A stretch of 64,000 bases of DNA from Aequorivita sublithincola DSM 14238. GTDB taxonomy: Bacteria; Bacteroidota; Bacteroidia; Flavobacteriales; Flavobacteriaceae. Below are positions 2,787-57,184 of this stretch, piece by piece. A program made the translations under genes and the position numbers. A model generated the notes under the pieces. The model did no database searches. It saw only the letters and a program-made list of their open reading frames with translations, and was not told the DNA's origin. How positions within the stretch are numbered: position 1 is the stretch's first letter; every line of letters begins with the position of its first letter. The stretch is taken from NCBI RefSeq assembly GCF_000265385.1, contig NC_018013.1, positions 1,639,001-1,703,000 on the forward strand. The letters are read 5' to 3'.

Positions 2787-2816
2787 AGTTTATTGAATTT
2801 CGGATTTTTTTTTGCC

Positions 2817-3009
2817 TTGCACATAACGGATTTGTATATGGCTCGTAGCGTGTAAATTAGCGATAACTTTTCGGATATAACACAAGCCGAATTTTTAAAT
2901 TTTACTAATTATTTTATTTTTAGGAATTTGTCAAATTTAAAAATTTGGCGACCTCGCAAAAATGCCTGAACCTCTGTGATAGCAACGACTTGCGCTATTT
3001 TTTATATAC
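2817..3009. repeat. attC-like palindromic spacer, copy A (interrupted by the IS)
   Basis: This is the left part of a long-type spacer. It starts with an arm containing acataacgg and gtatatggc and continues with tgtaaattagcgat and the inner motif ttcggat, then aagccga. Near the right it carries tttggcgacctcgcaaa and finally gcgctattttttatatac. The same order of motifs occurs in copies D and F. Where those copies end with tatacattgttgc, this one stops at tatac (3005-3009) and the IS110-type element begins. The missing end is found on the other side of the element. Confidence 0.7.
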
Positions 3010-3065
3010 GGCTTAAGTTTGATGTTTATTAAAAACACTAAATTAAGGCATATTAATAAGAAAGA

Positions 3066-3200
3066 ACAAAAGAGCGGAATAAGGTTATTATATACGCAGA
3101 AGCATAGACTTCGTCAACATTGAAAATCCCCGCTCTTTTCTACACAGATTTCGTACAGTTCTATGAGGCTTCAGACCTCGATTTTAAGTCGTTGAAACTC
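3066..3200 (+). ncRNA. Candidate bridge RNA of the IS110 element
   Basis: The region left of the transposase has a 10-bp perfect stem, aaaagagcgg (3068-3077) with ccgctctttt (3130-3139). The large internal loop contains ttatatacg (3088-3096), identical to the left insertion flank at 3002-3010. It also contains gtcaaca (3113-3119), which pairs with tgttggc (4237-4243) in the right flank using one U:G pair. Further on, cacag (3143-3147) equals the right end of the element (4227-4231), and ttaagtc (3184-3190) pairs with ggcttaa (3010-3016) at the left end, again with one wobble. The order target loop then donor loop agrees with the published IS621 bridge RNA. The assignment is inference from pairing; the RNA ends are guesses. 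Confidence 0.5.
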
Positions 3201-3232
3201 GCGTAGGGTGTCCTTTCAAAAAACATTTTCTT

Positions 3233-4204
3233 ATGAATAAAGATATAAAATATTTTGGGATCGACATCAGCCACTTGGTTTTCGATGTTACGGACTCCGA
3301 GGGCAATTACAATCAATTTAAAAACAATCCATCTGGCTTTAAGAAGTTTGCCAAACTCTTAGACCAAGAGAGCCATTGTGTGATGGAAGCTACGGGCTAT
3401 TATCATTATCAGCTGGCATATTTTTTACTTGAATCCAGTATTAAAGTATCGGTAGAAAATCCATTGGCGGTAAAACGTTTTATACAGATGAAGCTGACCA
3501 AGAACAAGACCGACAAGAGCGACTCTAAACCCATATGTGACTATGCAGAGCAGGTAGCATTAAAACTCTGGCAAGGTAACTCCAAGCATCAAATTGAATG
3601 TCTGCAAATGACCAGACTCCTTGCTGTATATACAAAACAGAGCACGATGCTAAAAAATAAATTGCACGGGGAGAGTGTTTTAGGCAACCCTAGCAAAGCT
3701 GTTGTAAGTTCTTTAAAACGAAGTTTAAAACACGTTAAAAAAGAGCTGTAAGCCATAGAGACAAAATTATTGCTATTGGTAAAACAAGTGCATCAAGATG
3801 TTTTAACTCGTATAAAAAGCATCCCTGGGATCGGTGACAAAACAGCTATAATGTTAGTGGTTTTAACTGATGGATTTGATCGTTTTACAAGTGGAAGTGA
3901 ATTATGCAGTTATGCAGGTCTGACCCCAATAATTCGGCAAAGCGGTAGCAGTTTAAAAGGACGTCCCCGCATCAGTAAGATTGGCAATCAAAAGCTCCGT
4001 AACCTATTATTTATGTGCAGTTTTAATGCCTGTAAATACAACAAGGCCTGTAGGGAGATTTATGAGCGCATAGTGGCCAAGGGAAAGAGTAAAAAATTAG
4101 CACTGATCGCAGTCTGTAATAAGCTGCTAAAACAAGCTTTTGCAATCGCAAAATCCGGATTAATATATGATGATACTTACAGAAGTACTTTAGTGAAAAA
4201 TTAA
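3233..4204 (+). pseudogene. IS110-family transposase interrupted by an in-frame stop
   Basis: Two open stretches in the same frame (3233-3751 and 3770-4204) are separated only by a TAA at 3749-3751. Reading through it gives a normal-length IS110 transposase of about 323 residues. The N-terminal RuvC-like DEDD part is recognisable in FGIDISHLVFDV, ATGYYHYQL and NKTDKSDSK. The C-terminal Transposase_20 part shows IPGIGDKTA, YAGLTPIIRQSG with the Ser region, and RPRISKIGNQKLR. Both domains are well preserved, so the stop looks recent, and a sequencing error or suppression cannot be excluded. The second ORF's nominal start lies inside the conserved region, so it is not a separate gene. As written the element should not move by itself. 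Confidence 0.85.
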
Positions 4205-4231
4205 TGCATTTTTACTTGTTTTTTACCACAG

Positions 4232-4244
4232 TACTTTGTTGGCA
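4232..4244. repeat. Right-hand remnant of spacer copy A
   Basis: After the IS the sequence tactttgttggca continues as the expected end of spacer A. Compare ttatatactgtgttgcc at the end of copy B and tatacattgttgcc at the ends of C1 and F. It lies 33 bp from the stop codon of the MazF-like toxin gene, a position similar to those of intact copies relative to their gene. It shows that the mazEF pair was already flanked by a spacer before the IS arrived. Confidence 0.6.
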
Positions 4245-4277
4245 GTAGTACTTTTCGTTTTTATTCAAAATTCAATT

Positions 4278-4601
4278 TTAATCCACGAAAGTTTCCCTGA
4301 TAATGTCTTTACAATTCTTTATTTCAGATTTCGATAATTGGTTAAACGTTTTTAATATTCGAGATTTGTCAATTGTCCTAATTTGGTCGATTGCAATCAT
4401 TCCCTTTTTTCCGTTATGTTTTACTTTAATTCTGGTCGGATAGTTTTTTAAGTTCGTTGTCATTGGAGCAACTACGATTGTTCTTAAAAACTTATTAATT
4501 TCGTTTGGTGAAACAATTACACAAGGTCTTGTTTTTTTAATTTCGCTACCAATTGTAGGGTCAAGGTTTACGAGTATGATGGAATACTGTTCTAATTCCA
4601 T
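4278..4601 (-). CDS. mazF: MazF/PemK-type mRNA interferase toxin
   Basis: This 107-residue protein is a type II toxin of the MazF/PemK family, ribosome-independent endoribonucleases that cut mRNA at short motifs. The diagnostic strand-loop GSEIKKTRPCVIVSP is at residues 18-32, with the conserved Arg25 and Pro26. The following VVAPMTTN (43-50) and the KGMIAIDQIRTID segment match the rest of the SH3-like barrel. It overlaps the last 10 bases of the upstream antitoxin gene, the normal order for this family. The pair lies between spacer A and spacer B and is therefore one unit of the cassette-like array; stable toxin-antitoxin cassettes are well known in large integrons. Confidence 0.9.
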   Translation of the reverse strand: MELEQYSIILVNLDPTIGSEIKKTRPCVIVSPNEINKFLRTIVVAPMTTNLKNYPTRIKVKHNGKKGMIAIDQIRTIDKSRILKTFNQLSKSEIKNCKDIIRETFVD

Positions 4602-4837
4602 TCTTCAAAATTTTCGTCCTCGAATACGTCATTAAATAATAATCGATCATCATTATTCTCACGCATTTCTTCAAATGCTTTTCCCCAGTTTTTTCTCGGA
4701 CTACTAATTGGTTTAAGGATTATTTGTCCTTTTTCCAAAATCATTTCTACCCTGTCTTTGATGTTATACTTTTCCAAAATAGTCTTGCTTAAACGAAGAC
4801 CTTTAGAATTTCCGATTTTTATAATTGCTGTTTCCAT
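4592..4837 (-). CDS. mazE: MazE-type antitoxin, AbrB/SpoVT fold
   Basis: This 81-residue protein begins METAIIKIGNSKGLRLSK, the swapped-hairpin AbrB-type DNA-binding domain of MazE antitoxins (about residues 1-45). It is followed by an acidic tail rich in Glu, Asp and Asn that should bind and block the toxin. It overlaps the toxin start by 10 bases, giving translational coupling and antitoxin-first order. The antitoxin-toxin complex normally represses its own promoter. The promoter would be expected in the 66 bp between the start codon and spacer B, but I see no clear operator there. Confidence 0.88.
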   Translation of the reverse strand: METAIIKIGNSKGLRLSKTILEKYNIKDRVEMILEKGQIILKPISSPRKNWGKAFEEMRENNDDRLLFNDVFEDENFEEWN

Positions 4838-4903
4838 AGTTTTATATCTGTAATTACAAAGTTAGTACAAATAGTTTAATGCGCAAATTTTTTTCGTATT
4901 AAT

Positions 4904-5033
4904 GGCAACGTTTATGTATATGAGCTGTGGCGTATTAAAGCACGAACCTCTCCAAATAAAAACTGGCTTTGGAAAATCCGCAGGATTTTCCAAGTGAGGA
5001 CTGACCAAGCCATAGCTTATATACTGTGTTGCC
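4904..5033. repeat. attC-like palindromic spacer, copy B
   Basis: The short-type spacer begins ggcaacgtttatgtatat and ends cttatatactgtgttgcc. The arms pair over about 24 bp (ggcaac with gttgcc, tatatgagctgtggc with gccatagcttata), with a few unpaired bases next to the end boxes. The centre holds a second stem, ggaaaatcc with ggattttcc, around 4971-4991. It lies 66 bp upstream of the mazE start and 17 bp downstream of the stop of the next minus-strand gene. Its right arm is the closest intact match to the reconstructed IS110 target. Confidence 0.75.
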
Positions 5034-5050
5034 ATCTGGCTTTCTGCGTT

Positions 5051-5725
5051 CTATTTTTCGGATGAGTTATTTTTCAATTCCGAAATTTCTATTTTCTGTT
5101 TCTCAATTATTTTGGATTGTTCTTCAATTCGATAATTAAGCGTATCAATCTTTTCTGTTAGTATTGGTTTTTCTTTCCTTAATTCAATTAACTCATTATA
5201 ATTATCAATTTTTTCTTTGTCAAAACTACTCTTGCCAATTCCTTGACCAACGAAAAAAGCTCCTGCAACGCAGGCAGCAAAAATAGCCCAAAACAAGCTT
5301 GGGGGAATTCCAAAGGGTAACTTGGTAATGGTTTCTTTTTTTACTGGTGCTAACGGAAAAACTCTACTTGAAGATGTGTTTTCGGTATTGTCATCAAACT
5401 CGGCAAAACTTTTAATTTTCTTTTTCATTGGTTCGATTTTGGTTGGTTCATCTTCTTGCTCTTCTATATACTCGATATATTCATCGATAAGTTGGAGTGC
5501 CTTATTTTTGAAATGTTGCTTATCTATTCGTTCAGCGTATACGTCTCCAATTTTTTGAATTCGGTAGTCGCCAATTATTGACTGAAAATTACTTGTTCGA
5601 TTAGATAAAATTCCGAAATATTCTTGAATAAAAGTTTGCGTGTTAGTCAACCAAGTTTCAAAATCGCCTTGAGATGATTTTTTCTTCTGTTCTTTTAATT
5701 TCCTTAAAATATATTCTTTGGTCAC
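5051..5725 (-). CDS. Unrecognised single-pass membrane protein with C-terminal coiled coil
   Basis: I do not recognise this 224-residue protein. The N-terminal 85 residues are predicted helical and charged, with FETWLTNTQTFIQEYFG near residues 22-38. A Lys/Glu/Asp-rich linker follows, then one hydrophobic segment, FWAIFAACVAGAFFVGQGIG, around residues 150-170. The C-terminal 50 residues (ELIELRKEKPILTEKIDTL onward) form a clear heptad coiled coil. This suggests a type II or III anchored protein with helical bundles on both sides. The gene is alone between spacers B and C1, 17 and 19 bp from them, so it looks like a single-gene cassette. Nothing in it assigns a function. Confidence 0.75.
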   Translation of the reverse strand: MTKEYILRKLKEQKKKSSQGDFETWLTNTQTFIQEYFGILSNRTSNFQSIIGDYRIQKIGDVYAERIDKQHFKNKALQLIDEYIEYIEEQEDEPTKIEPMKKKIKSFAEFDDNTENTSSSRVFPLAPVKKETITKLPFGIPPSLFWAIFAACVAGAFFVGQGIGKSSFDKEKIDNYNELIELRKEKPILTEKIDTLNYRIEEQSKIIEKQKIEISELKNNSSEK

Positions 5726-5744
5726 AGTTTATTTTTAGCTTGAT

Positions 5745-5871
5745 GGCAACGTCTCGTATAAGCGCAGTAGCGGGATTTACGTACAGATTTTTCGGATTAT
5801 GATTGCCCTTAAATATATACAATTACTATTGTTTAAGCACTTACCCGCTATTGCGTTTATACATTGTTGCC
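5745..5871. repeat. attC-like palindromic spacer, copy C1
   Basis: The short-type spacer runs from ggcaacgtctcgtata to gtttatacattgttgcc. The left arm segment aagcgcagtagcggg pairs with cccgctattgcgttta on the right with few mismatches, and the outer boxes ggcaac and gttgcc pair perfectly. The bases between box and inner arm (gtctc against acat) are not complementary, giving a bulge like the unpaired spacer of attC sites. It ends 8 bp before the stop codon of the FG-GAP gene and begins 19 bp upstream of the start of the coiled-coil gene. Confidence 0.75.
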
Positions 5872-5879
5872 AATTGTAT

Positions 5880-7271
5880 TTATAACTTCACTAATTTTTC
5901 AATTGAAGTATTACCATAGAAATCTTGAATTTCCACGATATATAAACCATCACTTAATGAAGAAATATTTAACTCTTTTACATTCGACTTTGATAATACA
6001 AGTTGTCCGGAAATATTATAAACTTTAATACTTGAAATGGAGGTCTCGGATTTAACAAATAAGATATTAGATGCGGGATTCGGATAAAGTAAAAATTTGT
6101 TTTTAGTATTTTTGGATACATCTAAATTTGTCAAGTTTTCAAACCACATTACTTTGTCTGTCACATCAAATGCCGTAGTCATGATATCTATATCATTATC
6201 TTGATCCAAATCGGCTGAATATATTGGAAGAAAATAATTAACGTTCCTTTTAAGAATTATGGGATTATTAAAACTTCCGTTATTAAGATTTTCTTGCCAC
6301 TGTATAACTCCTTCATCAGAAGAACCTTGTTCATAAATGACATGAACAGATGCAATGTCCTTGTCTCCGTCATTGTCAAAATCATCGGTACAAACTGCTA
6401 TAATAGCTTCTTGTTGCAAGATTGTATGTTCTATTGAAAAATCACCATTTCCATCTGTGTTTTCCAACCAACTCATGCCAACAGCAGCTCCCACGACAAC
6501 AATATCATTATCCCCGTCATTATCCATATCGGCAACACCAATATCATTTATTCTTCCCTCAAAGGTAAAAGGAATAGGTTGCACATCAAAGTTAGGTTGG
6601 CCAGAGTTTTTATACCATACTATGGATTCTTTTTCAGAAGCGATAATATCTATAATATTGTCATTATCCAAATCGGCTAAAAATATGTCTCTCTTATCAT
6701 TATTGGTATTTGTGGTAAGAATATGTTCGGGACCAAAGCCGCCTTGTCCATTAATATTTTCGAACCATGATAATTTAGAATCCTCTTGTTCTATTGGATT
6801 ACCTATACAAGTTGAGACCACATCGAAATCGCCATCATTATCTATATCAGATGCCATTGCATTCGTCGCTCCGAAAGAGTTGTCGGATATTACATGTTCA
6901 GAACTAAAACTTCCTTGATTATCGAGATTTTCATACCAAACTATTTTATTAAAAAATAATGTGGCCAAAATATCCATATCATTATCCCCATCCATATCAG
7001 CAGCGTAAATTGTTCGTACACTATAAGCGTTAGGCGTAACAATTTTCTGTGAAGAAAAAGTTCCATGTCCATCTGTATTTTCGTACCAAGTTATTGTGGG
7101 GTATTGATCGGATGCTGAAATTATATCCAAATCGCCATCTCCATCTAGATCAGCAGAGATTACTAGGTGCGGATAGGCTAAAGTACTATCAACCACTCTT
7201 TCGGATGAGAATTGTGCCTTACAGTTTATATAAACAATTATACATATAAATAATAATAGTCTTGTTTTCAT
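5880..7271 (-). CDS. FG-GAP/VCBS repeat protein with T9SS type A sorting domain
   Basis: The 463-residue exported protein starts with a signal peptide (MKTRLLLFICIIVYINCKAQ). Then come about seven FG-GAP/VCBS repeats of roughly 45-50 residues. Each has an Asp-rich calcium-binding loop (DLDGDGDLDI, DMDGDNDMDI, DIDNDGDFDV, DMDNDGDNDI, DFDNDGDKDI, DLDQDNDIDI) and an ITWYENTDG-like strand, together forming a beta-propeller. The last 75 residues (LLYPNPASNILFV through IEKLVKL) are a T9SS type A sorting domain, so the protein should leave the cell or sit on its surface. It is the only large secreted protein carried between the attC-like spacers (C1 and C2). The ligand is unknown. Confidence 0.88.
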   Translation of the reverse strand: MKTRLLLFICIIVYINCKAQFSSERVVDSTLAYPHLVISADLDGDGDLDIISASDQYPTITWYENTDGHGTFSSQKIVTPNAYSVRTIYAADMDGDNDMDILATLFFNKIVWYENLDNQGSFSSEHVISDNSFGATNAMASDIDNDGDFDVVSTCIGNPIEQEDSKLSWFENINGQGGFGPEHILTTNTNNDKRDIFLADLDNDNIIDIIASEKESIVWYKNSGQPNFDVQPIPFTFEGRINDIGVADMDNDGDNDIVVVGAAVGMSWLENTDGNGDFSIEHTILQQEAIIAVCTDDFDNDGDKDIASVHVIYEQGSSDEGVIQWQENLNNGSFNNPIILKRNVNYFLPIYSADLDQDNDIDIMTTAFDVTDKVMWFENLTNLDVSKNTKNKFLLYPNPASNILFVKSETSISSIKVYNISGQLVLSKSNVKELNISSLSDGLYIVEIQDFYGNTSIEKLVKL

Positions 7272-7292
7272 ATTTTCGTCTTTTATATAATT

Positions 7293-7421
7293 GGCAACGT
7301 TTGGTATAACCGCAGTTACGGCTAAATATACGAGGTTTTTCGGTTAAGCACGGAAGTTAGCAATTACGCGTGGATTCGGACGCAGTCGAATCCGCCGTAA
7401 TTGCGGTTATACAGTGTTGCA
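7293..7421. repeat. attC-like palindromic spacer, copy C2
   Basis: This short-type spacer begins ggcaacgtttggtataac and ends cggttatacagtgttgca. The left arm taaccgcagttacggc pairs with gccgtaattgcggtta. The centre has an additional hairpin, ggattcg with cgaatcc, around 7371-7392. It is 12 bp from the stop of the outer-membrane barrel gene and 21 bp from the start of the FG-GAP gene, the same spacing pattern as copies B, C1 and D. Confidence 0.75.
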
Positions 7422-7433
7422 AACAGTTTTTCC

Positions 7434-8051
7434 TCACAGTTTATAACTAAGGCCGAATTGTAAAACAGAACTTTTATTATTATCACGTTCAGTAATTCCA
7501 TAATTATATCGAAGTCCAATTCGATAATTTTCTGCGAAGGTAAATCCTGCTCCAACATTCAGCGCAACTTCAAATTTATCATAATCATCATTTCCAAAAT
7601 TGAAATCATCATTATTATCAGTTACATCTTGATTGATTACATATCCGAATTGTGGTCCCAATTCTAAATCGAAACTATCACTGAAATAATAATCAGCCAT
7701 AATTGGAAGTAAAATCAAATTCTGCTTAATATCTGCTTTAAATCTATTGCCGAAAACAGGGTCATTAGGGTCACCCATATTTATGTTTTCTGAAAATTCA
7801 ATTTCTGCATTTTGTGTTGAAAACAGCAATTCAGGTTTTATTCTAAAATTGTCAGTTAATTTAAAACTTAAAAATCCTCCAAGATGAAATCCAATTTTGG
7901 CATTTGTTTCTGCAGGAATGTTGTCATCAATAATTAGGTTGGAATAATTTAGACCTGCTTTTAATCCAAATTCGATTGGTTCATTTTGAGCTAAAACACT
8001 AAAGTTTATTAGCAGAGTAGTTATTCCGATTATCAATGTAGTCTTTTTCAT
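7434..8051 (-). CDS. Small outer-membrane beta-barrel protein (PorT-like family)
   Basis: The open frame extends upstream to 8213, but that part is translated spacer D. The start is set at the ATG of MKKTTLIIGITTLLINFSV (8049-8051), which opens a typical signal peptide ending after VLAQ. The mature protein of about 185 residues has alternating hydrophobic strands, including the opening FGLKAGLNYSNL, GFHLGGFLSFKLTD, LLPIMADYYFSD, LELGPQFGYVI and a terminal barrel strand ending LSYKL. This fits the outer membrane protein beta-barrel families common in Bacteroidota (OMP_b-brl_2/PorT type). Function is unknown. It occupies one unit between spacers C2 and D. Confidence 0.83.
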   Translation of the reverse strand: MKKTTLIIGITTLLINFSVLAQNEPIEFGLKAGLNYSNLIIDDNIPAETNAKIGFHLGGFLSFKLTDNFRIKPELLFSTQNAEIEFSENINMGDPNDPVFGNRFKADIKQNLILLPIMADYYFSDSFDLELGPQFGYVINQDVTDNNDDFNFGNDDYDKFEVALNVGAGFTFAENYRIGLRYNYGITERDNNKSSVLQFGLSYKL

Positions 8052-8074
8052 TTCTGATTTTGTTTTAAATTGTT

Positions 8075-8270
8075 TGCAACGTTTAGTATAAAAGAAGTAG
8101 GGCTGTAAATAAGCGATTATCTTTCGGATTATCCACAAGCCAAATCTTTTGCATTTTGTTTTAAATTTTTGTTCTAAAAGCCAAATCAAAAGATTTGGCG
8201 ACTTAGCAAACAAGCCTTAAACATTGGGTTTAACACTGAATTGCCCTATTTTTTTTATACATTGTTGTGC
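8075..8270. repeat. attC-like palindromic spacer, copy D (long type)
   Basis: The spacer runs from tgcaacgtttagtata to tatacattgttgtgc. Beyond the pairing outer boxes it contains an inner perfect 12-bp inverted repeat, gccaaatctttt (8139-8150) with aaaagatttggc (8188-8199), and the order tgtaaataagc, ttcggattatccacaagcc, ttggcgact, gcaaac, ttgccctatt. It is about 90 percent identical by eye to copy F over roughly 195 bp, and copy A is a more diverged member of the same subtype. It ends 17 bp before the stop of the following gene and starts 23 bp upstream of the barrel gene. Confidence 0.78.
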
Positions 8271-8287
8271 AACGTTTTTTTTTTAAT

Positions 8288-8884
8288 CTATACTTTTTCT
8301 TTTATTGACTCAAAAATATTGTTAGAATAAAGTTCAATTAATGAAGCATATTCGTTCATTCCCGTTTTAGTTTTTAAGTCCGATTTAAAAGTTGTGTCCA
8401 AATAATTTCTAAAGTTTGCCTTCTCTTTATTAAATGATAATTTTAAGAATAAGCTGATAATGTTAAGGAATTTTATATCCCCAACTTTTGATTTTAGGTT
8501 TTCTGGTAGATAAAGTTGTAAATTTTTAGAAAGCCAGAACGCAGAAAAATGTGATAAATCTTTTGAATTCAAATTTTGTGATTTGATAAACATAGCATAA
8601 TCAGCCAATAATTCATTTCCTTGAGTTACTTGCTTGTTCATCGATTTTTTTAAAGAATCGAATTCTTTCGGATTTTCAATTAAACCGTCTATTTGGGCAG
8701 AGTAGCCACAAATAGCAACTGGGAATAAAGCATCCCAAATTTTCATATTTTGTTCACTTTGTAATTCGCTATACTCGGAAAAGGTATTTGTAAAAGGTCC
8801 GAAACTTAAAACGGATAAGATTTTTTTTTCATATGCGTAATTGTCATAATTACTTTTCTTCTTAAATAAATTCAATATTCCCAT
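8288..8884 (-). CDS. Unrecognised protein of 198 residues
   Basis: I cannot assign a family. The product starts MGILNLFKKKSNYD; a Gly at position 2 after Met followed by a basic cluster is common in small cytoplasmic proteins of Bacteroidota. It continues as a largely alpha-helical, soluble protein without signal peptide or membrane segment. Features that could be searched are WDALFPVAICGYSAQIDG (around residues 50-67), HFSAFWLSKNLQLYLPE (114-130) and a helical C-terminus. It lies between spacers D and E, with the stop 17 bp from D and the start 34 bp from E, and so is another single-gene unit of the array. Confidence 0.72.
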   Translation of the reverse strand: MGILNLFKKKSNYDNYAYEKKILSVLSFGPFTNTFSEYSELQSEQNMKIWDALFPVAICGYSAQIDGLIENPKEFDSLKKSMNKQVTQGNELLADYAMFIKSQNLNSKDLSHFSAFWLSKNLQLYLPENLKSKVGDIKFLNIISLFLKLSFNKEKANFRNYLDTTFKSDLKTKTGMNEYASLIELYSNNIFESIKEKV

Positions 8885-8918
8885 TTATATATTAATTTTC
8901 TTGATTTGGTCAAATGTT

Positions 8919-9047
8919 GCACAACGTTAAGCGGATATGATCCGTACCGTCTCAAGACCTTTTATAAAGATACTATAATTCGGAAAATTGGAATAGCTTT
9001 AAATGATATGCCGAAAAAAGGTATGGGTTATATCCGCCTGTTGTGTT
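8919..9047. repeat. attC-like palindromic spacer, copy E (divergent type)
   Basis: The spacer starts gcacaacgttaagcggatat and ends ttatatccgcctgttgtgt. The arms pair strongly: cacaac with gttgtg, and gcggatat-a-cc with gg-t-atatccgc, with three extra bases (gtt) on the left next to the box. The interior is unlike the other copies, but the length (about 129 bp), the AAC/GTT boxes and the asymmetric bulge next to them are the same. It lies 34 bp upstream of the start of the 198-residue gene. Confidence 0.65.
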
Positions 9048-9427
9048 TAGGTTTTTTGGGCCCACCCATGGATCTTTTGGCAACAACAAAACCGGAGTTT
9101 TGGCGACCCGGCATACAGCTGCTGCGCAAGAGTGCCTGGGCGATTTTTTGATATGCGGTTTATCCTTTGGATAAACAGCCGTCTCAAAAAGTAATTTTAA
9201 GCCCGCAATGCGCTAAAAATCAGGGCACAAAAGGCAGCGAACCCTTGACATTGTGATTTTTTTTCGCTACCTTGACCAAGTCTTCTTACGTTGACAACGT
9301 TTGGAAATGCCAATTTCCACGATGCAATCGACAAGACTTGGACGCACAAGTGCGTTTTCTGTCCAGATTTTCCCCGCTAAAAAACCAATTTAAAATTCGG
9401 CCAGAACAATAGGTCGGTAAAATTAGA
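9048..9427. other. Gene-free, relatively GC-rich segment between spacers E and F
   Basis: No gene is seen in these 380 bp; the one longer plus-strand frame crosses spacer E and has no protein-like character. The segment is richer in G and C than its neighbours and holds several inverted repeats. These are ccaagtctt (9276-9284) with aagacttgg (9333-9341), enclosing ggaaat/atttcc (9303-9317), and a hairpin acgcac/gtgcgt (9342-9355). It may be a cassette without a protein gene, perhaps specifying an RNA, or the remains of a decayed cassette. Confidence 0.4.
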
Positions 9428-9622
9428 TGCAACGTTTAGTATAAAAGAAGTAGGGCTGTAAATAAGCAATTGCCTTTCGGATTATCCACAAGCCAAATCT
9501 TTTGCATTTAGTTTTATATTATTCATCTAAAAGCCAAATCAAAAGATTTGGCGACTTCGCAAACAAGGCTGAATCATTGGGTTTAGCATTTATTTGCCCT
9601 ATTTTTTTTATACATTGTTGCC
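9428..9622. repeat. attC-like palindromic spacer, copy F (long type)
   Basis: The spacer begins tgcaacgtttagtataaaag and ends tttatacattgttgcc, just 5 bp before the stop codon of the TPR gene. It matches copy D almost base for base in both outer thirds and carries the same inner stem (gccaaatctttt with aaaagatttggc). Differences cluster in the loop between the stems. The close identity of D and F, 1.35 kb apart, could reflect recent duplication or repeated use of one site type. Confidence 0.78.
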
Positions 9623-9627
9623 CACAG

Positions 9628-10395
9628 TTACTCTGCGTATTGCTTTTCCAAATCATTAATATTACTTAGATAAATTTCAGTAAGATATTCATTGTATGGG
9701 TCGTTAATTTTATAATTCAGAGTCTGTTTTGACTTTTCTAAATATTCTCTTGCTTTTGGAAGACTATCCAATTCCCTATAAACTTTAGATAGATAATAGT
9801 ATGCCTCCGTTGTTTTATCCGATTGCTCTAATGCTTTTTTAAATTCTGCAATTGAAGACTCATAATTTCTAAGTTTAAACTCACAAATTCCAAGGTAAAC
9901 AAAGGACTGAATATCTGCCCAACCTGCTGTCTGGTTTACAATATTGCGTTTGAAACATACGATTGCTTTTTCGTATTCTTTTTTTCCGTAATAACTTTCG
10001 CCACGAAGAAAATCAATATTTTCTCCCCAAGGTGCATCGTTAAAATTAGGCGTCAACGAATCCAATCTGTTGAAATCAGATAGTGCACCATCAAAATCCC
10101 TCAAAAATCTTAATTTCATATAACCACGATAACCTAAGTGCAATGTTGGGTCTAATTCCACAGCTTTATCAAGATATTTAAATCCTTGGTTATAATCGCC
10201 AGCTTTGTTAAACCGAATAGAATATTGCATATATTCATTACTATCAGTTGAAGTAAAGCTTTCAACACTTTGAGCTTTTTCTGCGGACTTTTTATTCATC
10301 CCTTGCACTTTGATGAAGCCGTAAATACCGATTCCAATTATTCCAATCAAAATGATGCCAAAAATAATACCTGTTATCTTAAAAAATTTCTTCAA
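9628..10395 (-). CDS. Membrane-anchored TPR protein, TTG start
   Basis: The 255-residue protein has one N-terminal membrane helix (about residues 5-28, KITGIIFGIILIGIIG) and then a periplasmic or cytoplasmic tetratricopeptide array. TPR units are visible as YSIRFNKAGDYNQGFKYLDKA, LHLGYRGYMKLRFLRDFDGA, YGKKEYEKAIVCFKRN, GICEFKLRNYESSIAEFKKA and YYLSKVYRELDSLPKAREYL. Such proteins act as scaffolds; no partner is evident. The start codon is TTG at 10395: an in-frame stop lies five codons upstream and the next Met is beyond the membrane helix. It overlaps the lipoprotein gene by 17 bp, so the two form a two-gene unit between spacers F and G. Confidence 0.8.
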   Translation of the reverse strand: MKKFFKITGIIFGIILIGIIGIGIYGFIKVQGMNKKSAEKAQSVESFTSTDSNEYMQYSIRFNKAGDYNQGFKYLDKAVELDPTLHLGYRGYMKLRFLRDFDGALSDFNRLDSLTPNFNDAPWGENIDFLRGESYYGKKEYEKAIVCFKRNIVNQTAGWADIQSFVYLGICEFKLRNYESSIAEFKKALEQSDKTTEAYYYLSKVYRELDSLPKAREYLEKSKQTLNYKINDPYNEYLTEIYLSNINDLEKQYAE

Positions 10396-10822
10396 TTTTT
10401 CCGTTTTTTATTGTTAACCGAATCAAATAGTAAGTCTTAGTTTCCGTATCGTTCTGCCAATCTCTAAGGTTTTGCGAAATTTTTTCAAGTTCCGCTATTA
10501 ACTTGCCATTGTTAAAGTCTGTTGGTTTATATTCTGCATTAATTTGAAAATTTTCTTGATTGCAATATTTCCCATATTTATCAATGTGAATTTTTAGAGT
10601 TATATAACCGTTTGCTGGTACGATGTCAGTTTCTTTGTCTTTAATTTCCTGAAATGCTTTTCGTATAGTAAAATTTTCGCCTTGAATTTTTGAATTATGG
10701 GGCGTGCCAAACATTGTAGTTGTCCAATAAGCTGAAGAATGTTCTTCACAGTTTGTTTCTTTTTTTCCACACGATAAAAGAGATATAAAAAGTGATAATA
10801 TAATTGCAATTTGTTTTTTCAT
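10379..10822 (-). CDS. Unrecognised lipoprotein
   Basis: The 147-residue protein starts at the ATG of MKKQIAIILSLFISLLSCGK; an upstream TTG in frame is less likely because it lies within the box of spacer G. The signal sequence ends in a lipobox (LLSC), predicting a lipid-anchored periplasmic or outer-membrane protein. The mature part contains GYITLKIHIDKYGKYC, a strand pattern resembling the C-terminal domain of TonB-like proteins, but the match is weak. It is cotranscribed and overlapping with the TPR gene. Function is unknown; being in one unit suggests the two act together in the envelope. Confidence 0.75.
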   Translation of the reverse strand: MKKQIAIILSLFISLLSCGKKETNCEEHSSAYWTTTMFGTPHNSKIQGENFTIRKAFQEIKDKETDIVPANGYITLKIHIDKYGKYCNQENFQINAEYKPTDFNNGKLIAELEKISQNLRDWQNDTETKTYYLIRLTIKNGKIEEIF

Positions 10823-10828
10823 AATTGT

Positions 10829-10910
10829 GGGCAACGGATGGGTATAAGAAACGGTTGCCTATCCGTCCAGAGAATTTGGCAACTGTTTTTTATGCCGGGT
10901 TATCTATCTG
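10829..10910. repeat. Truncated attC-like spacer, copy G
   Basis: The left end gggcaacggatgggtata has the usual box, 6 bp upstream of the lipoprotein gene. The matching right end is not found. Instead an inner stem (acggttgcc at 10851-10859 with ggcaactgt at 10878-10886) and a partly complementary tatgccgggttatctatc (10891-10908) follow. No GTTGCC-type end closes the element. This marks the right boundary of the minus-strand cassette-like series; beyond it three small genes run on the plus strand. Confidence 0.5.
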
Positions 10911-10978
10911 TTTTAAAAGAAAAAAAAGGAATGCAAATGCCGATAGGCAAATATTTATAAGAGTAAAAACATAACACT

Positions 10979-11507: not shown

Positions 11508-11595
11508 TGCTTAATGGGTTATATATTTGTATATGAAACGTTGAGTACCCACACATCCGTACAGCTTGGTGGCTTTTTTTCTTTTAAAATTGTAG

Positions 11596-11714
11596 ATAAC
11601 GTTAAGATATACGCAAGTTACCAAAAAAGTGCTTATATACAACCTAATCAGTATGGTTATCAGCATGTTTTAAAGCCGTTGCGTATATACAACCTTATAG
11701 CTGTATATACGCAA
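11596..11714. repeat. Palindromic element H with three copies of a ttgcgtatat box
   Basis: The left arm ataacgttaagatatacgcaa (11596-11616, one base over the usual arm) pairs with ttgcgtatatacaaccttat (11679-11698). The second box also forms a perfect 12-bp hairpin with gtatatacgcaa (11703-11714) across a 12-base loop, so alternative pairings are possible. It resembles the spacer family in size and in the aacgtt start, but its ends are different. The 68-codon frame covering it is translated repeat, not a gene. The wider gene-free stretch 11508-11957 contains nothing else that I can identify. Confidence 0.55.
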
Positions 11715-11957
11715 TGCTAAGTTTTCAAAACTTTCTGTAGAAACCCTTTATCCGTTCCGCATAAGCGTTTCCACCTTAAGGTTCAATCATTTGTTTCCTC
11801 CTCTAGCGCAGTAAGGTGTTCTTGCCAGAGCAGCATGTGGTTTTCAAAATTTCGCAGTATTTTATGTATCTTTTTTTTTTCACCCAAAAAAAACTAAAAA
11901 CAAGATGGCGTCTAAGCTATATTTATTAATTTCATAGGAAGAAAAAAAATAGCGATT

Positions 11958-12449: not shown

Positions 12450-12471
12450 CCAATCAATTTTTCTTTTTCAA

Positions 12472-17168: not shown

Positions 17169-17888
17169 TTATGAAAACAACTGCATCAACACCGCCAACG
17201 ATTTCGGTTTTTGGTAACCCTGCACGTGAAAACTGTAATAGGATAAAATAAATTCCAACAAATTTTGACGTTCTTTTTTTGAAAGCTTTACAGTGTTTAA
17301 AGTACTTGGATTTATTCCGAAGAAAAGCTTGAAATTTTCTATTTGAACACCTTCCAAACAATAATTACTGGTGTTTTTTGATTGAAAATTACCTTCCATT
17401 ATGTTGAAATATTCGTCTTCAATATTTGAAGCATCTGGATAAAAACCCAAATACTGGCTTAATTGCAAAAGAAAGAAAATATGAAAATTGGCAACTTCAT
17501 CATTTTGATCTAGCCACTGGAAGGATTGTTCCAGGAAAGTATAAAGTTCGTGATTTGGTTCTTCTTCGCGGATACAATTCTTTAGCATTTCAGATAAGAA
17601 CATAACCAAGCCAGTTTTTAAAATGTCTGTATGTAGCGTTTGGTATGGGTAGAAAACTTTTGCTTCCTTAATATATTCTAGCGTGCCTTTGTTTTTGTGT
17701 TCGGCAATAAGTTCTAATTGGGTGAGTGGCTGAAAATAGGAAGATTTCAACTTTCCTCGCTTCGATTTCAAGATGTTGCGCAACAAATAGCTTTTTACGC
17801 CTGCAACTTCAGTGTAACAATTTGAAATAAGATCTGCTTCGGAATATTTTATGGCTGAAAAAACAATGGCTTTAGTAGCAACAACCAT
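17169..17888 (-). CDS. recO: DNA repair protein RecO
   Basis: The 239-residue protein matches RecO, which loads RecA on SSB-coated DNA in the RecFOR pathway. The N-terminal OB-fold starts MVVATKAIVFSAIKYSEADL and includes GVKSYLLRNILKSKRGK. The helical C-terminal domain follows (LKTGLVMFLSEMLKNCI, FFLLQLSQYLGFYPD). The zinc finger Cys set of some RecO proteins is absent, as in many Bacteroidota. The start overlaps the porZ-like stop by one base (TAATG), so the two are coupled; this recO-porZ neighbourhood is common in Flavobacteriia. Confidence 0.92.
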   Translation of the reverse strand: MVVATKAIVFSAIKYSEADLISNCYTEVAGVKSYLLRNILKSKRGKLKSSYFQPLTQLELIAEHKNKGTLEYIKEAKVFYPYQTLHTDILKTGLVMFLSEMLKNCIREEEPNHELYTFLEQSFQWLDQNDEVANFHIFFLLQLSQYLGFYPDASNIEDEYFNIMEGNFQSKNTSNYCLEGVQIENFKLFFGINPSTLNTVKLSKKERQNLLEFILSYYSFHVQGYQKPKSLAVLMQLFS

Positions 17889-20209
17889 TAGCGAATTATC
17901 ATTATTTTGGAGACTTTGGTTTCCGTAGCATCATTCGTAGTAACTAAAACCAAGTAAACTCCAGAGCGCACTTTGTATTTTCCAAAAGCTGTGGTGTCCC
18001 ATAAAACGCTTCCTCCTTCAGAAGTTTCTTCAAAAACAAGGCTTCCGTTTATGTCGGTTATTTTTACGTTAGCTCTTGCTGTAAGTCCATCTATGGTTAC
18101 GTTTCCATAATATCCCGGTCGCACAGGGTTTGGAAAAGCGTGTACATTGTCTAGATTGTCGCTTGGCGCTGTGGCTGTTCCTCGGTAAGCTACAAGACCT
18201 TGAGTTGTGGCAAAATATACAACTCCTGTAAAAGGGTCTATGGCTATATCTTGAACGTTGTTAGTTGGCAGTGGTGAGTTGTCTTTGGTGAAACGCAGTA
18301 AGGTTTCTTGCCCATTGGGAGAAAAATAGAATACTCCAGAGTTAGCTGTTGCAATCCACTTATTGTTGGAGCCATCCACTTCAATATCTGTAATAGATTG
18401 TTCAAACAAAAGTTCTTGGCGCACGCCATTTTCAACTATAATAATGGGTTTTGTTTCTGGGGTTTCGCCTGCTTCAAAAAAACCTCCTGGGCTGTAAAGA
18501 ATACGTAATCCTTGAAGCGTTCCAATCCAAAGTTGGTTTTGAGCATCAAAAGCCAAAGCTCGCACACTGGTAGAGGGCAAATTACCAGCGCCATCACTCA
18601 ATTTATTAAAGGTTTCTGTGCGTGGATTATAGCCTAAGAGACCATTGCTATTGCTGCCAATAAAAACATTGTTCTCGCGGCTTAGGGCTAATTTTCCCAA
18701 GGCGAGTTCTTTTAAAGGATTGGCAACAACACTAGTAATATCAATTTTTTGAAATTGTCCGTTTGGAGACAGTTTTATTAGACCTTCGTCTGCCTTGGTT
18801 TGAACAAACCAGAGATTACCCTGTGGATCAAAATGCGAGCCAAATATCCGTATTCCAGCATCTGCAGTGCCTCCTCCTGGTAATGGAACGAGGATTCTGT
18901 CTAAAGGGCTATTGCTTTCGTCATATAGAATTGTAGGCTTTTCGTCTTTGATTTTTAATAGTCCATTTTGGAAGGAACTCATATAAACCTCTTCCGGATT
19001 TAACGGATTGATTGTAACTTTTAGTAAATCTGTTGGCTCCCCACCAACGGCTGCATCCAAATCTTTATAAGGAATATTGGTCCAAAGGGTGTCTTTTAAA
19101 TGACTTATGCCTCTTTTACTTAAAAGTCCGTCAGGGAAATATGGGTTGAAATCTACATCCACCTCCCCAAAACTTACCCAGAGTTGTCCGGGTGAAGCGT
19201 CAATGGCAAAAGGGCGATTCCGTATTGGACCGTTTGGCAATATTTGTGTTGGCTGGTTACTGGTGAAAGGGACAATCAACAAACCGTCTTCCGCAGTTCC
19301 CAGATAAAAGTTGGATCCAAAAGCATAGCCTGAAAGTAGGTCTAAATCATATCCTGGCACATTGGAAACGGAACCTTCTGGCACAAAACCCTCGGAATAG
19401 GACTGAATGGATTTATTTGTGGTGATAGTTAATAAATCATCGGCCAATCTAAATTTTTGAATGTTTGAAGCAAAAGTCTGTACGTTCGTCGTAGTTCCGT
19501 CTGGAGTGAAACGAAAAACTGTGTTGGAATAATTGGCAGCATAAAGTTCAGTACCTAATTTTTCTACTGCGCTAAAACCACCGCTTAAAATGGTTGTCCA
19601 ATTTTGGTAATCTATTAAATCGTCATCTGCTACCATGGCCATTCGCATACCATCACTTACACTTGCGGCGAAAATATAGGGTTCTAGCACTGTGGTCTGC
19701 GTAATGTTTATCTGGCTTCCGCCATCGCCTATGAAATATGTATCGCCAAATTCCAATGCTGCAAGGTCAAAAACCGAAATACCATATTGCGTGGAGATAT
19801 ATAGTTTGTCATTATATTCGTTGAAATTGTTGATGCGCTTTTTGTTTGGCGGAATGGTTTGTTTTTCCAAAATATCAACAACTTTCAAAATGTTTTCTTC
19901 GCCATCTATTGCAATTTCTATCAATCCATTTTCATAACCAATAACCAATAATTTGTAGGTTTCACTATAATGAATTGTGGTGATAAAGTCTCCTGAAAGT
20001 CCGTTAACTGTTGAAAGTGTTTTGATTTCTTTAGTGGAAAGGTCATAGGTAAATACCGCGTTTTCGGCACCTACAAAAACTTTATTATCACCCTCAGAAA
20101 TGTCTTTCACCGAAACGTATGAAAAAAATCCAGACCAGCGGTCTTCAAAATTCTGGGCGCTCGCCAGAAAAGAAAATAATAATAGGAAAGCAACGGCCAA
20201 CCGCTTCAT
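17888..20209 (-). CDS. porZ: PorZ-like type IX secretion component with two beta-propellers
   Basis: The 773-residue exported protein has a signal peptide (MKRLAVAFLLLFSFLASAQ), two seven-bladed propellers built from two-component-regulator-type repeats, and a C-terminal T9SS-type domain (AFPNPVRPGYYGNV through VSKIMIIR). Propeller repeats such as LSTVNGLSGDFITTI, NLWFVQTKADEGLIKLS and LWIGTLQGLRIL are visible. Length and domain order agree with Porphyromonas PorZ, a surface member of the T9SS attachment complex. The recO adjacency supports the identification. A general T9SS-secreted propeller protein is the alternative. Confidence 0.85.
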   Translation of the reverse strand: MKRLAVAFLLLFSFLASAQNFEDRWSGFFSYVSVKDISEGDNKVFVGAENAVFTYDLSTKEIKTLSTVNGLSGDFITTIHYSETYKLLVIGYENGLIEIAIDGEENILKVVDILEKQTIPPNKKRINNFNEYNDKLYISTQYGISVFDLAALEFGDTYFIGDGGSQINITQTTVLEPYIFAASVSDGMRMAMVADDDLIDYQNWTTILSGGFSAVEKLGTELYAANYSNTVFRFTPDGTTTNVQTFASNIQKFRLADDLLTITTNKSIQSYSEGFVPEGSVSNVPGYDLDLLSGYAFGSNFYLGTAEDGLLIVPFTSNQPTQILPNGPIRNRPFAIDASPGQLWVSFGEVDVDFNPYFPDGLLSKRGISHLKDTLWTNIPYKDLDAAVGGEPTDLLKVTINPLNPEEVYMSSFQNGLLKIKDEKPTILYDESNSPLDRILVPLPGGGTADAGIRIFGSHFDPQGNLWFVQTKADEGLIKLSPNGQFQKIDITSVVANPLKELALGKLALSRENNVFIGSNSNGLLGYNPRTETFNKLSDGAGNLPSTSVRALAFDAQNQLWIGTLQGLRILYSPGGFFEAGETPETKPIIIVENGVRQELLFEQSITDIEVDGSNNKWIATANSGVFYFSPNGQETLLRFTKDNSPLPTNNVQDIAIDPFTGVVYFATTQGLVAYRGTATAPSDNLDNVHAFPNPVRPGYYGNVTIDGLTARANVKITDINGSLVFEETSEGGSVLWDTTAFGKYKVRSGVYLVLVTTNDATETKVSKIMIIR

Positions 20210-31218: not shown

Positions 31219-31872
31219 TTAAAACAACGTTTTATAGAGTATAATATAGGGGGCAATTTCAAGTGCGCAAAGATACAAAATAAAATAGAAGAAATTACGG
31301 AATATCAAATTTCCATTTTTCTTATAGCTGTATAACAATGCAATAGTATTCAAAGCAAGAGCAAAACCAGCAAAAACTACTAGTGAGACAGTAGTTGGCG
31401 GGTATATAAAAAGAAAAAAAAGATTGCCAATAAAAAAGATTATACCAAGAAAATTACGATAACTTAATTTTTGGTAGAGATAATTATTGATAATCTCGTC
31501 CAAAGAGAAGATATTAGCTATAATTTTTTCCAAAGAAAACTTCATTAAAATAAATATTCCGTAACCAGTAAAAATTTGAAGAAATAACCATTCATTTTTT
31601 TGAACTTCCATTGGATTGAAGACTTCAAAAACCAAAAAAACAAAAACCGAAACACAAATTAGCTGCGCAACGAAGAGCATCATATTGAACGGATGGTTCA
31701 ATTCGTCATTTTTGCCGTGAACGAAAAAGTACTGATTGGTAATTGGAAGCAATGAAAATTCGTGAAACCGTTTGGGATAATAATATTTGGAAAGCGCGTA
31801 AAGAACGAAGCAGCCCACAAGCAAATATGTAGCCCAATCGGTTGAATTTATAAGTCTTTCGCTGAAATCCAC
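31219..31872 (-). CDS. DUF4271 membrane protein
   Basis: The 217-residue polytopic protein has about six hydrophobic segments, including YLLVGCFVLYALSKYYYP near the start and FFYFILYLCALEIAPYIILYK at the end. It matches the DUF4271 family seen next to hemD in Bacteroidota. The function is unknown. It is divergent from the glycosyltransferase gene and first in the transcript with hemD. Confidence 0.82.
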   Translation of the reverse strand: MDFSERLINSTDWATYLLVGCFVLYALSKYYYPKRFHEFSLLPITNQYFFVHGKNDELNHPFNMMLFVAQLICVSVFVFLVFEVFNPMEVQKNEWLFLQIFTGYGIFILMKFSLEKIIANIFSLDEIINNYLYQKLSYRNFLGIIFFIGNLFFLFIYPPTTVSLVVFAGFALALNTIALLYSYKKNGNLIFRNFFYFILYLCALEIAPYIILYKTLF

Positions 31873-31964
31873 CTTTAAATTTTTGCGTAAAGGTACAGCA
31901 AAATTTATTTCATGTTTACGGTATCAATTAGATTTTCCTTCACATTTGTTTGTTCAAAAAAAGG

Positions 31965-31972
31965 TACATTTG
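31965..31972 (+). promoter_or_regulatory. Promoter -7 box that sets the glycosyltransferase start
   Basis: TACATTTG lies 14 bp upstream of the ATG at 31987, with TTTG at 31945-31948 as a possible -33 box. This supports starting the protein at 31987, not at the frame's first ATG at 31912. Confidence 0.5.
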
Positions 31973-31986
31973 CGCAAAATTGCAGT

Positions 31987-32736
31987 ATGATTAAGGCAGT
32001 GGTGGTGGTGCCAACTTACAATGAAATTGAAAACATAGAGCGTCTGCTGCGCACTGTTTTTTCTTTGCAACGTGATTTTCACGTTTTGGTTGTGGATGAC
32101 AATTCCCCAGATGGCACTGCACAAGCGGTTGAGGCAAATTTCAATAATTATCCAGGTAAATTATTTATACTAAAACGTCCTGAAAAAACAGGTTTGGGTT
32201 CTGCTTATATCGCAGGTTTCAAATGGGCTTTAGAAAACGAATACGAGTACATTTTTGAAATGGACGCCGATTTTTCGCACAACCCAAATGATTTAATTCG
32301 GTTATTCAATGCGTGTCATAAAGAAGGAAATGATCTGGCAATTGGGTCACGATATGTGAAGGGCGTGAATGTTGTAAACTGGCCCATGAGCAGGGTTTTG
32401 CTATCTTGGTTGGCTTCAAAATACGTTCGTTTTGTAATGGGAATGGATATTTATGATACCACCGCCGGATTTATTTGTTACAAAAGAAGCGTGCTGCAGA
32501 AAATAAACCTAGATAACATTCGTTTTGTGGGCTACGCTTTTCAAATTGAGATGAAGTTTAAGGCGCACATCAGCAAATTCAAGATAAAAGAAGTGCCCGT
32601 TATTTTTACGGACCGCACCAAAGGAGAATCCAAAATGAGTTCGGGTATTATTTCCGAAGCTATATTTGGAGTGATTGCAATGAAATTTAAAAGTGTATTT
32701 AACAGTAAAAGGTTTAATGAAACATCTTTTTATTAA
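31987..32736 (+). CDS. Polyprenol monophosphomannose synthase-like glycosyltransferase (GT2)
   Basis: The 249-residue protein starts at MIKAVVVVPTYNEIENIERL, the standard GT2 opening; the frame upstream to 31912 is untranslated leader by the promoter argument. The nucleotide-sugar region VLVVDDNSPDGTAQ, EMDADFSHNP with the DxD-type metal site, IGSRYVKGVNVVNWP and a C-terminal catalytic TDRTKGESKMSS follow in order. This matches Dpm1-type enzymes that transfer a sugar from GDP-mannose or similar to polyprenyl phosphate. The membrane-spanning tail found in some homologues is missing. Confidence 0.88.
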   Translation: MIKAVVVVPTYNEIENIERLLRTVFSLQRDFHVLVVDDNSPDGTAQAVEANFNNYPGKLFILKRPEKTGLGSAYIAGFKWALENEYEYIFEMDADFSHNPNDLIRLFNACHKEGNDLAIGSRYVKGVNVVNWPMSRVLLSWLASKYVRFVMGMDIYDTTAGFICYKRSVLQKINLDNIRFVGYAFQIEMKFKAHISKFKIKEVPVIFTDRTKGESKMSSGIISEAIFGVIAMKFKSVFNSKRFNETSFY

Positions 32737-56692: not shown

Positions 56693-57184
56693 ATTTTATG
56701 ATTTAGGGGGAGCTAAATACCGTTCAAATATATAAAAAATCGGGTAAAATACACTATTATTATTATTATTCATTTATTATGACTTATGCGAATAACAAGC
56801 ATAGTATTGATTATCATTTTGTTACAAAATGAAAGAACAGGAATTTCATGATTTTTCAATTTTCGATTTGGAGTGTTTGTAAAAGCTATTGTTTTATGAT
56901 TTAACTTTACCTTGTGTTTTAATACATATATTATGTTAAAAACATACTAATCAACTAAAATTAAAGCCAGATCAAAGAATAAACCATCTTAAAAAGAGAA
57001 AGCCCTTACAAGGTAAGAGCTCTCGCAGCCTCGCAAAAACTAATTATAAAAATTAGAATGTAACAAAGCGTTCACAAAATCAAAGTTACAATTTAATATT
57101 AAAACACAGTTGGTTTTTGTCTTAAAAATCGCGGTAACCGAAAAGCGTATAGAGTAGGTGTTTTAAATATTAAATATTATAGTT
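56693..57184. other. Regulatory stretch between the XRE regulator and the secreted-protein genes
   Basis: No gene is seen. Features are a short (att)n run at about 56756-56770 and a hairpin agcccttac/gtaagagct (57001-57021). There are several AT-rich blocks that could be promoters: TTACCTTG-like near 56910, and a track ending tattaaatattatag just before the gene at 57185. The hairpin with flanking A-run may be a terminator of an unseen small transcript. Confidence 0.45.

Follow-up and report, generated by a model that had tools for sequence, protein, structure and literature searches.

A probable gene cassette array with attC-like sites in Aequorivita sublithincola and its relation to integrons

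Gene and site content of the array

A stretch of 64,000 nucleotides from Aequorivita sublithincola DSM 14238 (C1:1639001-1703000, hereafter the window), inside a single-contig genome of 3,520,671 bases, was analyzed. From position 2822 to about 10909 of the window, hairpins alternate with genes on the minus strand. An initial annotation had described this region as a cassette-like array of single genes separated by palindromes that resemble the attC sites of integrons. All eight palindromes were present in the sequence, and the cassette reading was supported by the repetition of whole units, the cassette junctions, a pairing signature of the site boxes and the association with a tyrosine recombinase, called int here.

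The sites were searched with a covariance model (R1) built from an alignment (A1) of 16 sites of the same genome, six window hairpins and ten others. R1 found seven sites in the window, B to F at 76.6-114.5 bits and A at 37.9 bits; the six other than A were in the training set and matched by construction. The features of the region are listed below (aa, amino acids; IS, insertion sequence; OMP, outer membrane protein).

2822..3009, plus strand: site A, attC-like, 5' part; starting box CATAAC; R1 match 2822-3017, 37.9 bits; split by an IS110 element
3010..4236, plus strand: IS110-family element in site A; Pfam DEDD_Tnp_IS110 and Transposase_20; ends accurate to a few bases
4237..4243, plus strand: 3' remnant of site A, TGTTGGC; IS boundary set by comparison with the second copy
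4278..4601, minus strand: cassette gene, MazF/PemK-like toxin of a toxin-antitoxin pair; PF02452, E 7e-28
4592..4837, minus strand: cassette gene, MazE-like antitoxin (weak); PF04014, 20.2 bits, below the cut-off of 24.7
4904..5033, plus strand: site B, attC-like; R1 114.5 bits; in training set
5051..5725, minus strand: cassette gene, 224 aa; without Pfam family; weak PADLOC PDC-S35 match
5745..5871, plus strand: site C1, attC-like; R1 101.7 bits; in training set
5880..7271, minus strand: cassette gene, secreted FG-GAP protein with Por secretion tail; PF13517, PF18962
7293..7421, plus strand: site C2, attC-like; R1 98.8 bits; in training set; cassette junction at its left end
7434..8051, minus strand: cassette gene, OMP beta-barrel; PF13568
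8075..8269, plus strand: site D, attC-like; R1 92.8 bits; in training set
8288..8884, minus strand: cassette gene, 198 aa; no family found in Pfam or PADLOC
8920..9045, plus strand: site E, attC-like; R1 76.6 bits; in training set
9046..9427, no strand: gene-less cassette body; three more copies in array 2, 97-99%
9428..9622, plus strand: site F, attC-like; R1 96.6 bits; in training set
9628..10395, minus strand: cassette gene, TPR protein; Pfam TPR families
10379..10822, minus strand: second gene of the F cassette, 147 aa; without Pfam family
10831..10909 (about), plus strand: site G, attC-like, truncated; 5' box GGCAAC and part of the arms, GTT box missing
11576..11713, minus strand: attI-plus-promoter-like remnant, no integrase; core AAC 11598-11600; ATATACGC at 11606-11613

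The toxin-antitoxin, propeller (FG-GAP), barrel and TPR genes named by the initial annotation agreed with Pfam, the MazE match lying below its cut-off. The genes left there as unknowns (5051-5725, 8288-8884 and 10379-10822) have products without a Pfam family. The open reading frame list held no minus-strand frame of at least 60 aa in the interval between sites E and F (9046-9427). Seven intact spacers and a truncated eighth had been counted. Site G, which R1 did not detect, is indeed truncated and R1 does find seven sites, but site A is split by the IS110 element and is not intact. Its CATAAC also departs from the starting boxes given for the intact spacers (ggcaac, tgcaac and cacaac).

Architecture of the sites

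The 16 sites of A1 share a common plan. The 5' half consists of NNNAAC, 5-7 unpaired GTTTA-like bases and an arm of about 15 bp that usually starts with GTATA. After a variable interior, the returning arm usually ends in TATAC and is followed by 3-4 unpaired bases and GTTNNN. Only AAC and GTT are constant in the boxes (NNNAAC/GTTNNN), and the triplets before AAC include GGC, TGC, CAC, TAC, GCC and GGT. The RYYYAAC/GTTRRRY box consensus of classical attC was not found, in agreement with the initial annotation.

Positions 2801-64000 of the window were also searched by a model-free scan for AACG...GTT whose arms are complementary (threshold 14). Six sites were obtained on the plus strand and none on the other strand at 2801-10920, and no site at 10921-64000; the reversed window gave three as a control. 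This stricter scan with its reversed-sequence control replaced a low-threshold palindrome scan, which returned many chance matches. A single-motif pattern was dropped: its strictest form gave zero matches, and at two mismatches it gave 60 compared with 91 in the reversed control. Covariance models were used because the control outnumbered the pattern.

In the whole genome, R1 (E ≤ 0.01) found 39 sites in five places: nine at 82.9-94.5 kb, seven in the window, 20 at 2480.6-2506.5 kb (array 2), two near 1892 kb and one near 2616 kb. Within each place all sites are on one strand, and the sites of the three large arrays all have one orientation.

A G.T pair in the arm was present in 16/16 sites of this genome and in 62/63 sites from across the phylum (see below). 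Moreover, the arms were more stable on the strand complementary to the genes in 16/16 and 57/63 sites, respectively. The nearly invariant G.T pair and an asymmetric loop in the 15-bp arm favor the gene-complementary strand, and the active form of the site is most likely this single strand in its folded state. The bottom strand, which is reported to be recombined in classical attC (PMC2727003), lies on the same side as the stabler strand here.

Cassettes as units of exchange

Within the window and array 2 (loci L042 and L043), four cassettes are repeated at 97-99.9% identity, each in two to four contexts. The OMP gene with site C2 was 99.7% identical over 798 bases (window 7294-8090 and L042:9415-10212) and has other neighbors in array 2. 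A 374-aa gene was present there in two copies (99.5% over 1389 bases) and a 207-aa gene in three (99.2-99.9%). The gene-less E unit has one copy in the window and three in array 2, 97-99% identical and with differing neighbors (window 8884-9444; L042:8872-9430; L042:17694-18232; L043:7914-8456). In all the repeats compared, the gene or cassette body recurred together with its site, and solo movement in the style of repetitive extragenic palindromic (REP) sequences or miniature inverted-repeat transposable elements (MITE) was not seen. Nine junctions were readable in register (left and right of the OMP, 374-aa and 207-aa units, left of E, and right of E twice). Together they restrict the exchange to the AAC triplet, not to a single bond; comparisons out of register or between like neighbors were left out.

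The pairing of the box triplets was also tested. The unit was taken as a site and the gene that follows it, and adjacent sites less than 2.5 kb apart were used. The triplet outside the gene-side GTT box was expected to pair with the triplet before the AAC of the next site, which is the far end of the same unit. The test was run on 110 rows of a second model (R2, see below), 89 R1 rows from genus loci and other clusters of this genome, the window including site A, and array 2 with 18 of its 20 R1 matches, two overlapping weak matches near the IS element being left out. The unit's own far end matched in 116/136 adjacent pairs, compared with 32/136 for the partner in place; 84 pairs matched the own end only, and none the in-place partner only. 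Own-end matches in the four sets were 50/60, 49/54, 4/6 and 13/16, and in-place matches were 13/60, 11/54, 2/6 and 6/16, while shuffling gave means of 6.1, 7.2, 1.5 and 3.3 (maxima 15, 17, 4 and 8). A subset of the rows gave own-end matches in 104/120 pairs and in-place matches in 29/120 (own-only 76, in-place-only 1). The outer three bases of one box come from the neighboring cassette, and the signature is as would be expected of units that pass through circles.

The recombinase of array 2

The genome encodes four PF00589 proteins (E ≤ 0.001), one of which, int, stands at the end of array 2. It has 274 aa (278 from an upstream TTG) and lies at C1:2507742-2508563, directly past the last of the 20 sites, divergent from the genes of its array and about 866 kb from the window array on the same chromosome. 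Another PF00589 protein, of 355 aa (C1:2149301), was near none of the 39 sites. The nearest named homologue of int was that of Aequorivita nionensis (89%). The initial annotation had suggested a divergent or integrase-less array. No int was found in the window array itself; however, one lies elsewhere on the chromosome, and an attI-like remnant is kept at 11576-11713.

The int of array 2 scored 165 bits on TIGR02249 (cut-off 265), on which IntI1 scored 508, and 187 bits on NF040815 (cut-off 220). Four other Bacteroidota int proteins had scores of 187-215 and 209-233, respectively; three exceeded the NF040815 cut-off (L095, L120 and L136, 228-233) and one did not (L133, 209). The corresponding values of the Kerfeldbacteria int were 219 and 214. 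Furthermore, the IntI insert of about 30 aa was absent from 20/20 int proteins (15 Bacteroidota, five other) aligned with two IntI.

In a tree of 118 proteins, the 12 IntI formed one clade (100/99) with the int proteins outside it, and two non-array recombinases of this genome formed a separate branch. The Bacteroidota int proteins fell in an 86-row group (84/98) that also held two Bacillota proteins and one plasmid protein; the tree was midpoint-rooted, with long-branch warnings that included IntI and the organism's own Xer. In most int proteins of the set, the frame spans 340-400 aa and includes an additional N-terminal part of about 70-110 aa, which the array-2 int lacks. Genus mates possess recombinases of 360-390 aa, and longer stretches show arrays beside several of these.

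The genes of array 2 include an AbiU-like protein, restriction-modification genes and a weakly Cas4-like protein (L043:5335-7044; L042:16635-19973; L043:10466-11590). Between two of its sites, L042:12261-12828 contains degenerate repeats (about 71% alike) and a plus-strand frame.

The attI-like site

The motif ATAT..AGTT was found downstream of int in 20/27 loci, and in 14 of these 20 the following triplet matches the gene-side box of the first site. In array 2 the motif lies between the array and int, and the window has it at 11598-11613. The window segment 11576-11713 was 76.8% identical to L043:11606-11743, which stops at the start codon of int; no PF00589 match was obtained at the window remnant. 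By its sequence alone, the motif appears to mark an attI beside the integrase gene.

Distribution of sites and int

The array-2 int alone was scanned against 84,980 species, each represented by one genome, and the best 80 of 86 loci were taken. Among these 80, 57 were labelled Bacteroidota, Ignavibacteria or Bacteroidetes/Chlorobi group, with identities of 37-68%. R1 was then applied to 57 loci (55 Bacteroidota/Ignavibacteria, one Patescibacteria and one Chryseobacterium plasmid). At E ≤ 1e-4 it gave 63 sites, 62 of which lay downstream of int on the opposite strand, with the cassettes reading away from int. The remaining site (L123) was located upstream of int and shared its strand, a divergent arrangement like that of array 2. 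The tyrosine integrase that the initial annotation had proposed to look for near other arrays was therefore found at array ends.

The model-free scan was in agreement with this polarity. In 55 of these loci at threshold 14, it gave 77 sites downstream on the expected strand and 4 on the other, compared with 0 and 3 upstream, although the upstream part was larger (408,491 bases vs 253,620 downstream). The reversed sequences gave 5 downstream and 3 upstream. At threshold 16, the four counts were 46, 1, 0 and 1, and the reversed control gave 1 and 0. The integrase was divergent in array 2, at 1/63 sites and in 6/32 nearby int-site pairs picked from the listed matches, and co-oriented otherwise. 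It stood at the cassette-start end in 63/63 sites and 32/32 pairs.

The 63 phylum sites were used to build R2. At E ≤ 0.01, R2 was applied to 74 loci and gave 110 matches, 103 of them on the strand opposite int. The other seven were that of L123, five in Patescibacteria (three in L149, one each in L153 and L148) and one opposite-strand reading in L142.

Even sampling of the phylum gave 296 genomes, in which strict filters were applied and at most 11 candidates per genome were scored for R2. Sites (E ≤ 1e-5) were present in 146/296 genomes and 85/140 genera, int (profile A3, E ≤ 1e-60) in 95/296, and IntI (TIGR02249, E ≤ 1e-60) in 85/296, of which 84 were above the cut-off. Sites occurred in 84/95 genomes with int and in 62/201 without it (Fisher 8e-22, ignoring relatedness). 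Split by recombinase content, they were found in 61/70 genomes with int only, 23/25 with both, 11/60 with IntI only and 51/141 with neither. The sites track this int, not classical IntI, in the 296 genomes. Among the 73 genomes of the class Bacteroidia, 42 had int, 55 had sites, 40 had both and one had IntI. At the levels of genus, family and order, R1 (E ≤ 1e-3) found sites in 41/59 genomes, including all 28 of the genus (2-35 each). The custom covariance model suggested in the initial annotation thus revealed site arrays across Bacteroidota.

In Patescibacteria, R2 matches stand beside related recombinases with int at the same end (L149:1299-2422, L153:2435-2528 and L148:5189-5326; Kerfeldbacteria, CPR3 and Peregrinibacteria). 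A plasmid of Chryseobacterium oryzae (L173) carries int at 17853-18896 and one R2 site at 31864-32055, with IS91-type elements between them. It may represent a mobile version of the system.

Turnover at the locus and IS elements

Eleven genus mates that share the gene next to the array on its right were compared at the level of species. Similarity of the right flank starts at window 11922-11926 or slightly before in ten of them, and at 12466 in one. In G022, both flanks are kept and enclose 4.1 kb of other genes with zero sites, compared with 13.9 kb in A. sublithincola. G024 has three sites and other genes at the same flank, and a single site was present in the stretch read of each of G016, G004 and G002. 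No site was present at the flank in the stretch read of G005, G027, G020, G010, G018 and G009. Gene content at the window position therefore differs between species of the genus; such a difference was among the checks proposed in the initial annotation.

The IS110-family element of the window was 98.2% identical to L042:7068-8337 in array 2. Its transposase frame (3233-4204) is broken by a stop codon, and array 2 holds an intact copy. In this genome the element splits two different sites, in both of which the insertion point follows the arm end TATAYAC and precedes TTGTTG. Relatives with 62% and 59% identity end at the GTT box in the arrays of G008 and G015, the left junction being seen in the first only. 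Altogether, attC-like sites carry IS110-family elements in their interior or at the GTT end at window 3010-4236, L042:7068-8337, L082:4775-5734 and L091:1167-2132. Similarly, IS1111 elements are reported to target one end of classical attC (PMC11187229).

The sole match in an Rfam scan of the window was a DUF805b RNA at 57128-57160 (37.6 bits, cut-off 35.6).

Comparison with known systems

The arrays resemble sedentary chromosomal integrons (IntI/attI/attC) in their tandem units, each ending in a foldable attC-like site, in the tyrosine recombinase at one end, in the attI-like site between int and the array, and in the AAC/GTT crossover. Further likenesses are the predicted better folding of the gene-complementary strand, the IS110/IS1111 elements at the site, and the duplicated, gene-less, toxin-antitoxin and defence cassettes. 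In classical attC, as here, the outer box bases are contributed by the neighboring cassette. The differences concern both partners. The recombinase here has no IntI-specific insert and falls outside the IntI clade, int is usually co-oriented with the cassettes, and most int proteins carry the extra N-terminal part. The outer boxes keep only AAC/GTT, and an asymmetric 5-6/3 loop and a nearly invariant G.T pair occur where classical attC has extrahelical bases.

The best-scoring NCBIfam model for these proteins was NF040815 (recomb_XerA_Arch, 'site-specific tyrosine recombinase/integron integrase'). It gives a protein name only, and no record was found that ties arrays or sites to it. Some int proteins score above its cut-off; therefore, the NCBI pipeline may already name some of them with 'integron integrase'. 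Clusters of attC sites lacking integron-integrases (CALIN) are alike in having a site array without an adjoining integrase, as in the window. CALIN, a category of IntegronFinder, are defined by the classical attC model. The window retains an attI-like remnant, and a fitting int lies elsewhere on its chromosome.

Integron recombination is reported to require the IntI-specific domain, which is also the feature that IntegronFinder uses to recognize IntI (PMC9668308); the present recombinase is missed by design because of this. Bacteroidota are named among the phyla with integrons (PMC8618304, PMC9668308). For Bacteroidetes, IntI standing alone (In0) and a single complete integron, that of Salinibacter ruber, have been reported (PMC9024848). 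The insert is called 'not fully conserved' in an integron-like subgroup (PMC8138268), and this recombinase may already be in that subgroup. No description of the present Bacteroidota system was found in the literature searched, a scope outside which preprints and most subscription papers fall.

Interpretation and alternatives

The window is best explained, with a probability of about 90%, as an array of cassettes belonging to an integron-type system that is specific to Bacteroidota and has a dedicated non-IntI recombinase. It was classed as a Bacteroidota-type integron and not as a classical one because the layout, attI, unit and crossover triplet were recognized in the sequence, and the IntI domain and the box consensus were not. 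A unit would consist of one gene (sometimes two, sometimes none) and a hairpin site downstream of it. The int protein, as a dedicated tyrosine recombinase, would recombine sites within the AAC/GTT triplet; the site would be folded as the gene-complementary single strand. Excised cassettes would be circular, with their two outer box triplets paired, and would re-enter mainly at the attI adjoining int. The window array would have lost its int and kept the attI-like remnant, and the array-2 int probably acts on it in trans.

Several observations weigh against this explanation. Sites were found in 62/201 genomes without int and none (E ≤ 1e-5) in 11/95 genomes with it, R2 also matched 11/60 IntI-only genomes, and the Fisher value takes no account of relatedness. 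The own-end match failed in 20/136 pairs; the failures in the window are E and the split site A, and the E units fail in array 2 as well. By eye, the true 3' boxes of the two IS-split sites of this genome mismatch their neighbors. Rows without locatable boxes (8/110 and 10/89) formed no pairs. In addition, the phylum sites were found with a model of this genome, so that the G.T conservation is partly due to selection, and the opposite strand had the more stable arms in 6/63 of them. The attI expression (20/27 loci) was written after 12 of the downstream regions had been read. Finally, the array-2 int is divergent, whereas most other Bacteroidota int proteins are co-oriented with their cassettes.

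The window array may be an inert fossil, with only the arrays that adjoin int being active, which would be compatible with the above explanation of the whole system. We consider this rather unlikely. The window has no int, A is split, G is truncated and the attI is a 77% remnant, but six sites still score 77-115 bits, and the OMP cassette is 99.7% identical to its copy in array 2, about 840 kb away. The exchange between the arrays was therefore recent.

It is very improbable that the array is a classical integron remnant (CALIN) that lost IntI and whose attC sites drifted. The layout and the crossover triplet are those of classical attC, and IntI above the curated cut-off occurs in 84/296 phylum genomes. 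However, this genome has no IntI match at E ≤ 1e-60, and the array-2 int is without the IntI insert and reaches 165 bits on TIGR02249. IntI was present in 1/73 class genomes, and the sites follow the other int (int-only 61/70, IntI-only 11/60).

That the palindromes are REP/MITE-like mobile elements or terminators between ordinary genes, with array repeats made by homologous recombination, would suit intergenic hairpins right after genes in many copies (39 here), some of them in int-less genomes, but this reading has hardly any probability left, as gene and palindrome recur as a unit with nine junctions in AAC, whereas breaks from homologous exchange would fall at any point of the palindrome, the box triplet goes with the far end of the gene and not with the palindrome (116/136 vs 32/136), and the three large arrays have one orientation with int at a fixed end elsewhere.

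Beyond the window, we lean slightly towards the view that Bacteroidota (with weak matches in some Patescibacteria) run their own integron system, in which an Xer-like recombinase clade that has no IntI-specific domain acts on folded attC-like sites. Integrons would then either have arisen twice, or the system would have kept a state from before IntI acquired the domain. About half of the sampled phylum genomes have sites, so that a major route of gene capture would lie outside the reach of IntI-based surveys. Defence genes in cassettes are a known theme of sedentary integrons, and array 2 carries such genes. If the system is active, the attC-type reaction would need no IntI-specific domain, and the origin of integrons could be tested by comparing the two recombinase clades on hairpin sites. 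Gene cassettes would then be a common route of gene exchange in Bacteroidota.

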